Source of the DNA: Synechococcus sp. CBW1108
GTDB lineage: Bacteria > Cyanobacteriota > Cyanobacteriia > PCC-6307 > Cyanobiaceae
Direction: 5' to 3'
Length of the DNA: 64,000 bases
NCBI RefSeq assembly: GCF_015840335.1
Contig: NZ_CP060395.1
Location: forward strand, 2,579,277-2,643,276
A model generated the notes under the pieces. It had not been told where the DNA came from. It did not search any database and saw only the letters and a program-made list of their open reading frames with translations. The number at the start of each line of letters is the position of its first letter. Positions within the stretch are counted from its first letter, which is position 1. Shown here in pieces: positions 1,010 to 17,073 of this stretch. The position numbers were made by a program, and so were the translations under genes.

Positions 1010-2099
1010 ATTCGGCTCGTCCCTCTTTGCTCAGCAGACCCGTGAGCCGCTCGGCTCGGGTGATCTGGTTGAGGCTCTGGCGGCGCAACACCACGCCCCC
1101 ATCGGCGGCAACCTCGTTGGTCTGCCAGTTCCAGCTGCACCTGTTTGCCTCCAGGGAATCTCCGGGCTGCTGGATCCGGCAGACCTGGGGAATCAGCACG
1201 GTGTGGCTGCGTCCCAACACCTCAAAGCCCTGGCCGCTCAAACGGGACTGGTCGAGTTGGGCAGTGAAGGGGTGGGGACTGCTGATGCGCTCAAGGGCCA
1301 TTTCAATGCGGGTGTCGCTGGCATCGAGGCGGGCCTTGCGGCTCGGGTCGAGCAGTTGCACGGGGGCAGCCAGATCAATCACCCGCGTAAGGGAATTGCC
1401 GCTGAGGCGTGGTGCAGTGAGGGTCTGTACGACGTTGGCCGGGAGGCGCCGCTCCCCCCGAACCGGGCCCATGCCTACCAACTGGCCAGTGCGGGCATAC
1501 CAGTCGACAGCCTTCAGGGCCAGTTTCAGCTGGTCGCTGCCGCTGCGTTCCAGCACGGGTTTGCCGCGCAGTTCCAGTTTTTCCTGCTGCAACAACACCA
1601 GGGCTCGCCTCGATCTCAGGCGCAGATCCCCCTGGCTGGCCTGGGGGCTGTGATCAATCACCATGCGCTCCTGGCGCGGGTACCAGCGCAGCCTCTGGGC
1701 TGTGATCAGCAGGGGTTTGGGCCCCAGCTTGACCAACCTGGTCAGGCCTTCGAGCTGCACCACTTCGCCGTCATTGATCACCGTGCCACTGGTTGCCTTG
1801 AGGCGATAGGCGGGCTGGCCCTTGGCATAGATCGTGCCGCTGAGATCACGGGCCTGGGCCACCCTGCGGCCGAGGTCATAACGGGCTTCCGGACTGCTCA
1901 ACTCCCAGAGAGGCAGTCCATCGGTGCCCTTCTGGCGCAGGTTTAGGGAGCGAAACACAAAGGGCTGGGGAGGCTCTTCCTTAGCGTCCTGCGGTCGACA
2001 GCCGAGCAACAGCAGGGGCAGGGCCGCACTGCCCATGGCAAGGAGCAGAAGGGGGCTGGCCCATGGGGCTGAACCAGGCTTGCCAGCTGAACGCCCCAT
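909..2099 (-). CDS. lptC: LptC-type LPS export periplasmic protein
   Basis: A 396-aa protein starting with a hydrophobic segment that ends in a lipobox-like LLGC (Cys 34). It is followed by beta-rich sequence in which the LptC pattern occurs (WELSSPEARYDLGRRVAQA, then a second repeat with ITAQRLRWYPRQERMVI). Cyanobacterial LptC proteins are longer than proteobacterial ones because the beta-jellyroll is extended or doubled, and this length fits. Role: bridging the inner-membrane LptBFG transporter to the outer membrane for lipopolysaccharide. The ATG at 2099 overlaps the metG stop as ATGA, so the two are translationally coupled. The 3' end overlaps the convergent CCB gene by 101 bp. Confidence 0.7.
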   Translation of the reverse strand: MGRSAGKPGSAPWASPLLLLAMGSAALPLLLLGCRPQDAKEEPPQPFVFRSLNLRQKGTDGLPLWELSSPEARYDLGRRVAQARDLSGTIYAKGQPAYRLKATSGTVINDGEVVQLEGLTRLVKLGPKPLLITAQRLRWYPRQERMVIDHSPQASQGDLRLRSRRALVLLQQEKLELRGKPVLERSGSDQLKLALKAVDWYARTGQLVGMGPVRGERRLPANVVQTLTAPRLSGNSLTRVIDLAAPVQLLDPSRKARLDASDTRIEMALERISSPHPFTAQLDQSRLSGQGFEVLGRSHTVLIPQVCRIQQPGDSLEANRCSWNWQTNEVAADGGVVLRRQSLNQITRAERLTGLLSKEGRAEFSNPGNRVLSQVKVPPRSGSGPRRSAQPPPFAP

Positions 2100-13263: not shown

Positions 13264-14304
13264 CTAGTTATTGCGGTAGAGCTCCTTGAGCAGTTGGTAG
13301 GCCTCATTGAGCCTTCGCATCGTTTCTTCGTTGCCACCGGAATCTGGATGGTGGCTCATGGCCAGTTCTCGATACGCATCCCGAATTTCGCCAAGGGTCA
13401 GTCGGTGCCCATGGACAGTTGGCAGCTTGAGCAATTTCAGGGCCCCATGCAGGGTCATCGTGTGCTCCAGGGTCTGGAATGAGGTTCCCTTGCGTCTCTT
13501 GCGGAACCGGTTGACAAAGCGATGGATCAGGGTGGGCAGGCGAAGTTGAAGTGTGGACGTACTGAACGGGTCCTCCAGCAGACCGGCCATCACCATTACG
13601 CGCTCAAAGCTGGCGGGTTCATTGCCCCAGCTGGGGGCAATATGCACCACAACGTCACAGGCCAGCGACCAGCTGAATAGTTGCCCTTCGCTCTGATCAC
13701 TCTGGGGCCAGATGTCCTGGGCCAACCACACCATGGCTGCTTCCAGCACGGCTTCATTGGCTCTTTTGCCATAGAGTTCAAACCAGTGGTCGCGAGCTCT
13801 GGCCAGGGCCTGCTCGAGGGCATCCCTTTCGAGCTGGGGCAGCAGTTCAACCGGTGACTCCTCCATAGGCCTGCGGGGCTGCAAGCTCTTTTTCAGCTGC
13901 TCCGACTGGCGACGCACAAAGCCCGGTAGATCGATGCCGACCTGGCGGGGTTCGGCCTGGGGCCTTGGCGCAGCTGGGGTGTTCAAGTCAACTTCGCCCA
14001 ACTCGAGGCAAAGATCTCCATTTACCCCACTGGACATCAGTACTAGGGCGCCCTGTTCATTGAATGTGGAGGCTCCTGCACTTCCGGTTAGGTCATCGGT
14101 TGCTCTGGCTTCTGGCTGGTCTGGTTGAGGTGTTGCTTGCTCAACTACTGACGTATCTGTGAATAGTTCATGCAAAAGCCTTTCAACAATATCTCCGCGA
14201 CTGCGCAATCCCCATTCTGCTTTTAACGCGTCAATCTTGCCGAGCAGTTCTACCGGTAGCTCCAGGCTGAAGCGGCGCCGCTGCGATTCATGGGTTGGAG
14301 CCAT
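13264..14304 (-). CDS. Ribbon-helix-helix-like N terminus fused to a C-terminal J domain
   Basis: A 346-aa protein. Residues 1-48 (RRRFSLELPVELLGKIDALK, then LRSRGDIVERLLHELF) read like a ribbon-helix-helix DNA-binding segment. A low-complexity linker (50-150) follows, then a helical middle region (about 150-290) with no family I recognise. The last 50 residues are a J domain: GEIRDAYRELAMSHHPDSGGNEETMRRLNEAYQLL, with the HPD triad at 319-321. J domains stimulate DnaK ATPase. The start lies 2 bp upstream of the DUF3370 stop codon region (the DUF3370 gene is downstream on the same strand), so the order of the genes on the minus strand is DUF3370 first, then this gene, tightly coupled. Function unknown. 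Confidence 0.75.
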   Translation of the reverse strand: MAPTHESQRRRFSLELPVELLGKIDALKAEWGLRSRGDIVERLLHELFTDTSVVEQATPQPDQPEARATDDLTGSAGASTFNEQGALVLMSSGVNGDLCLELGEVDLNTPAAPRPQAEPRQVGIDLPGFVRRQSEQLKKSLQPRRPMEESPVELLPQLERDALEQALARARDHWFELYGKRANEAVLEAAMVWLAQDIWPQSDQSEGQLFSWSLACDVVVHIAPSWGNEPASFERVMVMAGLLEDPFSTSTLQLRLPTLIHRFVNRFRKRRKGTSFQTLEHTMTLHGALKLLKLPTVHGHRLTLGEIRDAYRELAMSHHPDSGGNEETMRRLNEAYQLLKELYRNN

Positions 14305-14306
14305 CC

Positions 14307-15884
14307 CTAACGGCCCATCAGGCCGCGCAACATTTGCTGCTGTGCTTCCAGCGCCTGTTGATATCGATCGTAGAGAGATTGGCTCATGGGGCTGGGCTGG
14401 CTCCCGCGGTAACTAGGGGGTGGTGTCATGGGGGGAATCAGCGGGGGCACCGGGGTAAGGGGCGCCACAGGTGTGAATTCGATGGGTGCCAGCAACCCGT
14501 CTGCTTCCGTCAACTCAGGGGGGCTGATGGGCGCTGCGGCTGGGGCAGATCCTGCGGCGTTACGTGCCAGCTCTATTTGGCGCTCCCGCGCCTGGAATAT
14601 TGCATGTTGACTTGCAGGCAGAATGCTCAATAGATGGCCTGGGGTTGCATCGGCCGGATAAACCAGGCTGACTCGCACCGGGTTCAGTTGACCAGCGCGC
14701 AGGTTTAATTGTGCGAGCGAAAGGCTCTGACCTGAACGCATTCCCACGTGGACTTCCTGGAGGCCCTCCTCCGAACGGATTTGCAGGGAGCCACGAAAGG
14801 CTATGAATGGTTTTGAAGCGCCACTGGCTACCGGGTGGCTCAGCACCAACTCGTACGGCCCTGAACCCTTGAGATTGAGGTCGACGTCAAATCGCACTCC
14901 GTAGGTGCCGACGTTGTCTAGGGAGGAATCGATCATGCGACTGGCCAGGGGATTGACCTGCACTTCACGGGTGCCGAAGTTATGGCGAATGGTGCTGGTC
15001 AGGGGCACATGCAGCGGGCCATTGGCATCCAGGTCGTAAGTAAGGCTGGCCGTGTACCCATCCCCAATCGCCACGCCACCTACCCGGGAGAAGACTCGAC
15101 GCCCGTTGATGTCAGCAATGCGGTTGAGGTAAACCCTGCCTGGGGCCAGTCTCCCCTGGTCCAAAACCGTCAGCAGGTCACACTCGCTGGTGGCTTCCTT
15201 GGCCGCCACCACCGCCATTTGAAAGGGGCCGTCACTGCGTCCCTTGAGCAGGGCATTAGCTATACCCAGGGCGGGGAGCTGGGTTTGAAACAGAACAAGG
15301 CGACTGCGCGCTGGAATAGTGATTTCGTCGGCAAGTTTTGGATCAAGCCTGCCCCGCAGCACCTGGATGGCAGTCGCATCACCAGGGCCCGTATTCCAGG
15401 GCCTGGGCCCAAGCGGCCTGACCCCCATCTTGTATTCCTGGAGATAAGGTGCTTCAAAGCTGTTACGCACGGCTCCATTCTCAAATCGGATATGGACCGC
15501 GCGCCCACCTGGATTGATCAGAATCAATGCAAGGGTGAGTTCAGGCCGGCGGGATGAGCGGGAGAGCTGGCCCCGGTTAGGTGGAAAGTATTTGTGGTGC
15601 ATGTGCACCCCAAATTCGCCGTTGAAGTTGTATTGGGCGTTGCGTAGGGGTTGGCCGGTTTCGGCCGCATAGGCGTAGCCAGGGGCGGTGTTGATCAAGA
15701 TGCCGGGTCCCTCAACCTCCTCCGGTTGGTTGGAATGGAGAACGGGCACCTTGTTGAAGTTGCCATTGAGGGGCTGGGCTTTCTGGCCGGCCATCAAGGC
15801 CACATAGGCAGCTGCCGGGCGCGCCTCGAAGCCGATGCCACCCATGCCGAGGGCGAGGGCAAGGAGCAGGGGCAACGGGCCCAT
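14307..15884 (-). CDS. DUF3370-family secreted protein
   Basis: A 525-aa protein with an N-terminal signal peptide (MGPLPLLLALALGMGGIGFEA), then a long beta-rich domain beginning ALMAGQKAQPLNGNFNKVPV and FNGEFGVHMHHKYFPP, which I recognise as the cyanobacterial DUF3370 family. The C-terminal 100 residues are Pro/Ala/Gln-rich with repeated PP motifs. It is probably periplasmic or surface-exposed; the function of the family is not known. The ATG at 15884 is preferred over an upstream in-frame TTG at 15911. It is followed after 2 bp by the RHH-J-domain gene. Confidence 0.65.
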   Translation of the reverse strand: MGPLPLLLALALGMGGIGFEARPAAAYVALMAGQKAQPLNGNFNKVPVLHSNQPEEVEGPGILINTAPGYAYAAETGQPLRNAQYNFNGEFGVHMHHKYFPPNRGQLSRSSRRPELTLALILINPGGRAVHIRFENGAVRNSFEAPYLQEYKMGVRPLGPRPWNTGPGDATAIQVLRGRLDPKLADEITIPARSRLVLFQTQLPALGIANALLKGRSDGPFQMAVVAAKEATSECDLLTVLDQGRLAPGRVYLNRIADINGRRVFSRVGGVAIGDGYTASLTYDLDANGPLHVPLTSTIRHNFGTREVQVNPLASRMIDSSLDNVGTYGVRFDVDLNLKGSGPYELVLSHPVASGASKPFIAFRGSLQIRSEEGLQEVHVGMRSGQSLSLAQLNLRAGQLNPVRVSLVYPADATPGHLLSILPASQHAIFQARERQIELARNAAGSAPAAAPISPPELTEADGLLAPIEFTPVAPLTPVPPLIPPMTPPPSYRGSQPSPMSQSLYDRYQQALEAQQQMLRGLMGR

Positions 15885-16088
15885 TGGGGAGCGGCAGTCG
15901 ACTGGTCTCAAATGAAGGAGCTGGTGGGGCTTTTCGAGGGATTTGCCCTTGGAGGCAATTTGGTGAGCGCTGCTGAGCTTGAAGCATTAGTCACGCTAAG
16001 GCTGTTTCATGGCCATTTCCGGGGGAAACAAGGCACTCGGCCCACCGCTTTGGCTCGCTAGAACCATTGGGCTTTGATCCACTTTCTC

Positions 16089-16283
16089 ATGTTTCCCCCC
16101 TTTGGCTGCTGTCCAGTTGGCGACGAAGGCGGCCACGACAACTGGCGCCGCCACCAGCAGCGCAAACTGCGCATGCTTCAGTTTTGGCGCGACGGGGTCG
16201 AACGTCAGTTGGCCGCTGTAAATGCGGCGATCAGCACGCTGGAGCAACAGATTGTCCGCGATGGCGGCAGCTCGGGCAGCTGA
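16089..16283 (+). CDS. Small conserved cyanobacterial protein
   Basis: A 64-aa protein rich in charged and aromatic residues, with NWRRHQQRKLRMLQFWRDG and VERQLAAVNAAISTLEQQI, predicted to form an amphipathic helix pair or coiled coil. Similar small helical proteins with a WRDxxERRLAAxxAxI pattern occur widely in Synechococcus, as far as I recall; the function is unknown. The ATG at 16089 is used. The 3' end overlaps the convergent sigma-factor gene by 53 bp. A competing antisense ORF (15996-16247) looks less protein-like. Confidence 0.55.
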   Translation: MFPPFGCCPVGDEGGHDNWRRHQQRKLRMLQFWRDGVERQLAAVNAAISTLEQQIVRDGGSSGS

Positions 16284-17073
16284 CCGGGCTACTGAGCTGG
16301 CTGCTGATAGGTGGATTGGCCGAACGGCCCAGCCCTTGGCGCAGCTCAGCCAACCCGCGCTTGAGCCGCCTCTGCACCGTCATGGGACTCACCTTCAACA
16401 GGGCTGCGGTGCGCCGGTAAGTCCACCCAGATATGACTACTTTGTCGACCACTTGGCGAAGCTCGGGCTTAAGACAGGCCCACTGACGCTTCAGTCTCAA
16501 CTGGTACTCCCCCTCGCCATTTGGTTCGGCTGACCCTTGTTGAGCTGACCCGACTTCTCGATCGACAGCCTGTTCGGCCCAGGCCTCGATCACCCCATCT
16601 GCCAGACCGATCGGCCGAGCCATGGCCTTACCCCTTTGCAGCTCTTGCCACTGCGGGATACTCAGGTCCAGGGCCCTGCGCAGATCCTCCGAGTTGGCCT
16701 CTTGGCCATGGGTTTTGTGCCAGTTCGCCTGCACTTGACGCAGTTTGTCGTGGAGCTCCATCTGACGGCGTGGCAAGCGCACGGCCAGGGCGGAATCCCT
16801 GAGGTAGTGGAGGATTGCTCCGCGAATGTGGGGTCTGGCAAAGGCCTCGAAGGGAGTCCGGGTCTGGGCGTCAAAGAGTTCGGCGGCCCGCAGCAGACCC
16901 AGCAGACCAACTTGGATCAGATCTTCGATCGGTTCGGGGCAGCGGCGGCCGTAATGCACCGCGATAGGAGTCACCAAACTGCGGTATTGGTCGACCCTTT
17001 GATTGCGCTGGAGGTGAGCCTGGCTCCTCTGGGCAGCTGTTGGTGCGGCGGTGGCTCTGGACTTGTCGGACAT
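16231..17073 (-). CDS. Group 3 sigma-70 factor (SigF-like)
   Basis: A 280-aa sigma factor. Region 2 reads IEDLIQVGLLGLLRAAELFD and FEAFARPHIRGAILHYLRDS; a short region 3 follows; region 4 is PELRQVVDKVVISGWTYRRTAALLKVSPMTVQRRLKRGLAEL, a helix-turn-helix for the -35 element. It lacks region 1.1 and the long region 1.2-2 linker of housekeeping sigma factors, so it is a group 3 factor. In cyanobacteria such factors (SigF) control pili and stress or surface genes, but the target here is unknown. The last 30 residues are Cys/Ser-rich and may be dispensable. Confidence 0.85.
   Translation of the reverse strand: MSDKSRATAAPTAAQRSQAHLQRNQRVDQYRSLVTPIAVHYGRRCPEPIEDLIQVGLLGLLRAAELFDAQTRTPFEAFARPHIRGAILHYLRDSALAVRLPRRQMELHDKLRQVQANWHKTHGQEANSEDLRRALDLSIPQWQELQRGKAMARPIGLADGVIEAWAEQAVDREVGSAQQGSAEPNGEGEYQLRLKRQWACLKPELRQVVDKVVISGWTYRRTAALLKVSPMTVQRRLKRGLAELRQGLGRSANPPISSQLSSPVSCPSCRHRGQSVAPAC

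Follow-up and report, generated by a model that had tools for sequence, protein, structure and literature searches.

J-domain proteins (J proteins) decide where the Hsp70 chaperone DnaK acts, and one class of them is known as class C (type III). In Escherichia coli, the J protein CbpA binds curved DNA and consists of an N-terminal J domain with DnaJ-type C-terminal domains. The 64,000-nucleotide stretch of Synechococcus sp. CBW1108 analyzed here (NZ_CP060395.1; hereafter the window, to which coordinates are relative) encodes a 346-amino-acid protein that carries an N-terminal ribbon-helix-helix (RHH) segment, a helical middle domain, and a C-terminal J domain, here called the RHH-J protein. 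Like class C J proteins, it combines a J domain containing the His-Pro-Asp (HPD) triad with a private targeting region and no other DnaJ domain, but here that region combines an RHH with a helical domain that was unseen outside the family Cyanobiaceae in our cyanobacterial samples. It also resembles CbpA in being a J protein linked with DNA, yet its J domain sits at the C terminus, and DnaJ-type C-terminal domains were not found. In Myxococcus, the RHH nucleoid protein CdbA is functionally linked to PilZ-DnaK chaperones (PMC10313047); RHH and chaperones are separate there, whereas RHH and J domain share one chain here. In Nostoc, according to PMC9239167, DnaJ3 is a specialized J protein paired with DnaK1, and marine picocyanobacteria have no DnaK1 orthologues; the RHH-J protein is likewise a specialized cyanobacterial J protein, presumably with a process of its own, but it does occur in marine picocyanobacteria.

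The reading that we favor, at a probability of roughly 0.4, is that this protein acts as a co-chaperone: a homodimeric J protein of class C that carries its own targeting module, probably docks on DNA through its RHH, and would have DnaK carry out remodeling there. Conservation counts refer to an alignment of 72 sequences, comprising the window and 71 of 80 named loci, which were themselves the best 80 of 371 relatives; L071 failed a length filter, the starts chosen for L075 and L123 fell inside the RHH, and L082, L089, L100, L103, L105, and L115 were left out as near repeats. The gene and its parts are as follows.

13264..14304, minus strand: RHH-middle-J protein gene (ATG start, 346 amino acids; open reading frame [ORF] and Pfam)
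13267..13458, minus strand: C-terminal J domain, residues 283-346 (Pfam DnaJ, structural match)
13342..13350, minus strand: HPD triad, residues 319-321 (invariant in 72/72)
14161..14280, minus strand: ribbon-helix-helix domain, residues 9-48 (Pfam RHH_1, model helices, covariation of residues 11 and 15)
13942..14151, minus strand: acidic linker of low conservation, probably disordered, residues 52-121 (model confidence mostly below 50, high nonsynonymous rate)
13882..13941, minus strand: GIDLPGFVR motif and short helix, residues 122-141 (conservation and model)
13480..13842, minus strand: middle domain of five helices with a basic last helix, residues 155-275 (alignment and model)

The J domain is complete. 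Pfam DnaJ matched residues 303-340 with 31 bits against a cut-off of 27.8, and all 72 relatives scanned singly matched this model at an E value of up to 1. In three of the 19 genomes surveyed for J-domain matches (G071, G075, and G112), the orthologue falls just below the Pfam cut-off. The HPD triad, already recognized at residues 319-321 when the stretch was interpreted from its letters (the sequence-only reading), proved invariant; G323 and G324 are unchanged in 72/72, R308 and Y311 do not vary, and position 312 holds Arg or Lys in 72/72, these last three positions aligning with R22, Y25, and K26 of DnaJ, which we take to be DnaK contacts. An AlphaFold model of the full-length protein, built with the 72 sequences, had a mean predicted local distance difference test score (pLDDT) of 73.4 and a predicted template modeling score of 0.52, with ten-residue mean pLDDT of 73-90 from residue 281 on. 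Residues 283-346 of the model matched chain B of the Tim14-Tim16 complex (2guz_B; Z 10.4, root-mean-square deviation [rmsd] 1.7, 63 residues aligned) and the DnaK-bound J domain of DnaJ (5nro_B; Z 7.3, rmsd 2.5, 57 aligned), and a Foldseek search with the whole model gave no E value at or below 0.001. The J domain makes up the last 64 residues, and Pfam and NCBIfam scans found neither a glycine/phenylalanine-rich region nor DnaJ C-terminal domains. Assignment as a class A/B DnaJ or as CbpA was rejected on the C-terminal position of the J domain, the lack of any other DnaJ domain, and an NCBIfam DnaJ score of 24.7 bits versus 377.2. As candidate DnaK partners, two full-length HSP70 genes were present in each of six genomes examined, and four to eight J-domain matches per genome were found at E up to 0.001 across 19 genomes, so that the RHH-J protein is one J protein among several.

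The assignment of the N-terminal segment as an RHH, suspected in the sequence-only reading from a short motif, is supported by Pfam, by the ranking of NikR and CopG among solved structures, by helix placement, and by covariation. Pfam RHH_1 matched residues 11-47 at 23.3 bits against a cut-off of 20.5, and at 28.8 bits when the N-terminal segment was scanned alone; at E up to 1 it was matched by 50/72 relatives scanned singly and, with the N-terminal segment alone, by 33/36. A profile of the segment searched against solved structures ranked NikR, CopG (twice), and a CopG-family regulator as its top four, with E values of 0.12-0.18 that are weak alone, while the whole-family profile reached NikR at E 0.018. 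The AlphaFold monomer model placed helices at residues 18-31 and 36-48, where the two RHH helices are expected. Residues 11 and 15 covary: R11 occurs with Glu or Asp at 15 in 54/72 sequences and with another residue in 9, Ser or Thr at 11 occurs with K15 in 8, Thr occurs with Thr in 1, and no sequence lacking R11 has Glu or Asp at 15 (0/72; Fisher p 6e-7, uncorrected for relatedness). Such a pattern would fit facing positions on the two strands of an antiparallel ribbon. Where the BLAST match started past residue 48, as it did in 13 sampled genomes, the RHH was recovered in the same frame in 13/13. The likeness to CopG/NikR-type proteins lies in the N-terminal RHH_1 domain and in their place, weakly, as top solved relatives; the differences are an acidic third ribbon residue in 54/72 sequences, the fusion to a J domain, and the absence of a NikR-type ligand domain by Pfam. 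Separately, locus L255, from a genome of the same genus, encodes a standalone RHH protein of 75 amino acids (1047-1274, minus strand) that is close to the RHH of the J protein, reaches 55 bits against the RHH profile of the family, and lies near an ORF that is transposase-like by eye.

Between the RHH and the J domain, the linker carries a mean net charge of -10 over residues 52-122 and leads into the GIDLPGFVR region, where I124, L126, P127, G128, and F129 are invariant and the model has a helix at residues 128-141. The middle region, which the sequence-only reading had set aside as uncharacterized and in need of profile and structure searches, proved to be a confidently modeled five-helix domain (mean pLDDT 93.1) with no convincing relative. 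Invariant residues occupy 19 of its 121 columns in 40 sequences, four of the 19 being Trp, and its last helix has a net charge of +5 to +10. A profile search of the PDB gave a single row, an ABC transporter protein at E 0.37; Pfam held no relative; Foldseek gave no match at E 0.001 or below; and the best VIA-align 2 score was Z 3.9, nothing convincing. Two transcription-initiation structures, 9m9d_F (Z 4.7) and 3ugp_A (Z 2.5), were considered as relatives, judged too weak, and not believed. The missing relatives do not prove a new fold. The nonsynonymous rate was below the synonymous rate in the RHH, middle, and J segments in 8/8 close pairs and the linker evolves faster, the segments being short and single ratios noisy. 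Together with the recurrence of the Pfam matches among relatives, these rates speak against a chance origin of the domain calls.

The RHH-J protein is retained by most Cyanobiaceae, the streamlined Prochlorococcus included. With a strong match defined as a best E value at or below 1e-30 and a good genome as one at least 90% complete, strong matches occurred in 160 of 201 sampled Cyanobiaceae genomes and in 120 of 131 good genomes. The 11 good genomes without one comprised seven of genus g9 together with G021, G025, G049, and G185; the family profile was run on 19 genomes including those 11, and in 17 it matched only the J part or only the RHH, over short stretches, and in the other two nothing. 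The seven g9 genomes (G008, G063, G091, G114, G133, G149, and G164) are 95-99% complete and also lack a close orthologue of the neighboring DUF3370 gene described below. Named relatives were Cyanobium, Synechococcus, and Prochlorococcus, along with a few further labels, Aphanothece among them; one record was labeled Bifidobacterium breve and is probably a misnamed bin. A class sample of 242 genomes held the middle domain in 29 family members and, doubtfully, once elsewhere, in G208 (E 0.005), a candidate rejected because it has an internal stop and the full profile did not recover it. Searched with the single protein, the same sample gave outside the family only matches around the J domain and no full-length copy; the non-family match in G308 reaches residue 225 but contains four stops. 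In a phylum sample of 292 genomes, all 36 long matches came from family members, and outside the family there were two J-domain matches, one of which (G586, E 6e-13, residues 256-340) was set aside because its J domain sits on a 428-amino-acid protein that otherwise differs, by eye. These genome samples overlap, and coverage outside the cyanobacteria came from the named-relative search, of which the best 80 were kept, and from a scan of viral contigs, in which 78 relatives matched only within residues 262-346, none at full length.

From the observed domains, their conservation, and the two full-length DnaK genes, we infer a mechanism for the favored co-chaperone reading. Two N-terminal RHH segments would pair to form a dimer, and this would probably dock on DNA, as other RHH proteins do. 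The apparently flexible acidic linker would join the RHH to the family-specific helical domain, whose basic last helix may bind a client or further nucleic acid; the J domains would recruit one or the other DnaK there and trigger ATP hydrolysis, and DnaK would then remodel a nucleoprotein or regulatory complex at that site. In a related reading, a core protein of picocyanobacteria would tether DnaK to chromosomal DNA: a dimer built on the RHH would act as a nucleoid or regulatory protein and would bring along both a J domain and a novel helical domain. We regard this as less likely than not.

Several observations weigh against DNA-docked DnaK recruitment. The ribbon strand is unassigned in the monomer model, a format that shows this strand poorly, and the counts behind the 11/15 covariation come from related sequences, in which one or two events may account for it. 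The presumed DNA face (residues 11, 13, and 15) is mostly R-S/T-E/D and thus ambiguous; the third of these residues is acidic in 54/72, unusual for a DNA binder, and the RHH net charge is near zero (mean 0.4), which together make DNA binding uncertain. In helix II of the J domain, residue 309 is Glu or Asp in 72/72 and residue 313 is acidic in 57/72; we take these to be the positions of K23 and R27 of E. coli DnaJ, so binding to DnaK may be weakened, redirected, or tuned. Genus g9 lacks the protein. Finally, no operator was recognized: inverted repeats amounted to one imperfect example in the gap upstream in the window and eight AT-rich ones in that of the Prochlorococcus locus L253, none evidently shared, an alignment of upstream regions held nothing convincing as an operator, and a simple promoter scan found one promoter-like site versus 1.3 expected and two terminator-like sites versus 3.3 expected.

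The gene directly upstream on the same strand encodes a secreted DUF3370 protein.

14307..15884, minus strand: DUF3370 secreted-protein gene (Pfam DUF3370, synteny, signal peptide by eye)

Pfam matched this ORF at 300.1 bits against a cut-off of 25. The residues downstream of the ATG at 15884 resemble a signal peptide by eye, and the ORF list holds a longer alternative start, a TTG at 15911. The ORF ends at 14307, 2 nucleotides (14305-14306) from the J protein gene, agreeing with the spacing and strand given in the sequence-only reading. Among the 80 named loci, DUF3370 lies directly upstream on the same strand with no intervening gene in 64, which are all of those where it was found (64/64); of the other 16, L087 and L110 start too close to the end of a contig, ten are Prochlorococcus-titled, and L117, L118, L126, and L137 are other metagenome-assembled genomes, while L135 (MIT 0701) is the one Prochlorococcus-titled locus retaining DUF3370. 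Gaps measured in 62 of the 64 had a median of 23 nucleotides, 61 being at most 50, with four overlaps of 4 nucleotides and one gap of 124 as extremes. The translational coupling suggested earlier is plausible at the 2-nucleotide gap and in the four overlaps and less so in the 49 of 62 loci with gaps of 8-45 nucleotides. Close orthologues were defined by an E value of 1e-160 or lower, beyond which the matches are distant paralogues. By this definition DUF3370 is present in 104 genomes, each of which also encodes the J protein, while among the 160 genomes encoding the J protein, 56, some of them incomplete, have no close DUF3370 orthologue (89 good genomes with versus 31 without). In this sample the RHH-J protein thus occurs without a close DUF3370 orthologue and never the reverse, which makes it the core member and DUF3370 optional. 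The two likely form an operon where DUF3370 exists, with the J protein not dependent on it. Conservation of the pair, which the sequence-only reading had proposed to survey, thus held in all 64 named loci that have DUF3370 and failed in the genomes without a close orthologue, in part the outcome that this reading had named as refuting it. The distant paralogue found in many family genomes (e.g., G009 and G131) has about 30-34% identity at E about 1e-22 to 1e-30, and several of its copies have TGA stops within the matched stretch.

The gene order SpoIID, diadenosine tetraphosphate (Ap4A) phosphorylase, SigF-like sigma factor, DUF3370, J protein, phycobiliprotein (opposite strand), RlmD, and PheT (opposite strand; named by sequence) is widely kept across loci, and the adjacency of DUF3370 and the J protein is therefore partly general synteny, the block also keeping Ap4A phosphorylase, the SigF-like gene, RlmD, and PheT. 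In the ten DUF3370-less Prochlorococcus loci, and also in L253, the Ap4A phosphorylase precedes the J protein.

Among the alternatives, a real if tentative possibility is that the RHH serves purely for dimerization and does not bind DNA, and that the middle domain alone picks a client, be it a photosynthetic, ribosomal, or membrane one. The acidic presumed DNA face, the near-neutral RHH, and a possible R11-E/D15 salt bridge would favor this, as would the strong conservation of the middle domain (19/121 columns) and its strongly basic last helix. On the other hand, R11 is present in 63/72 sequences, residues 9 and 10 are mostly basic, R34, R36, and G37 of the turn are nearly invariant, and eight sequences place K15 on that same face; turn and ribbon positions of this kind, we presume, often hold DNA in RHH proteins. 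RHH proteins are also commonly repressors, and HspR-DnaK offers a parallel for repression tuned by DnaK, so the protein could by analogy be a transcription regulator, perhaps of its own unit, with DnaK acting through the J domain and free DnaK reporting folding stress. The 323-nucleotide gap ahead of the gene in L253 would leave room for such control, but that gap also contains a small divergent gene, no operator-like repeat was recognized upstream, and the large middle domain is left unexplained; we consider this role unlikely.

The sequence-only reading had proposed two further roles, neither of which was supported. As a surface or envelope client, DUF3370 would make the J protein a dedicated, cotranslated chaperone, in keeping with its place directly upstream on the same strand in 64/64 loci and the median gap of 23 nucleotides; an optional DUF3370 beside a core J protein argues against this, as do the 56/160 genomes (31/120 good) having the J protein without a close orthologue and the partly general synteny of the block. 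DUF3370 as an obligate partner was rejected on co-occurrence (31 of 120 good genomes have no close orthologue), and the dedicated-chaperone role is very improbable. The RHH is a common antitoxin fold, and the BrnA antitoxin model touches the J protein at 14.5 bits; the cut-off of that model is 60 bits, however, and the neighbors (DUF3370, SigF-like, Ap4A phosphorylase, SpoIID, phycobiliprotein, RlmD, and PheT) include none that is toxin-like. Most toxin-antitoxin loci are not kept family-wide at syntenic places, whereas this protein is found at a syntenic place in most family genomes, and an antitoxin-like role is scarcely credible.

Elsewhere in the neighborhood, the SigF-like gene (16231-17073, minus strand) adjoins DUF3370. 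The ten Prochlorococcus-titled loci have neither the SigF-like gene nor DUF3370 at the J protein locus; L117, L118, L126, and L137 keep the SigF-like gene without DUF3370. An apparently overlooked ORF of 64 amino acids (16089-16283, plus strand) is divergent from DUF3370 and overlaps the end of the SigF-like gene. It was found in 77 of the 80 named loci, in L253, and in the window, always on the strand opposite the J protein, with a helical core kept from GC-rich Cyanobium to AT-rich Prochlorococcus; Pfam and NCBIfam scans gave no family over cut-off. In the class sample, 47 non-family genomes had matches at E up to 0.01, the weakest being doubtful. The ORF is kept in the seven tested g9 genomes without the J protein, and it is not always beside the latter, lying 29 kb away in G039 and 11 kb away in G001.

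A literature search, made mostly outside subscription papers, found no description of an RHH-J protein or its role and no known name for its architecture; the joint family was likewise unfamiliar in the sequence-only reading. A J protein that most of the family keeps, with a DNA-binding-type module and a private domain, retained even by Prochlorococcus without DUF3370, suggests that Hsp70 performs an important task, apparently not yet studied, in phototrophs that abound in the ocean. If it does tether DnaK to the chromosome, it would provide a direct link between Hsp70 and the chromosome or transcription in some of the smallest free-living phototrophs.

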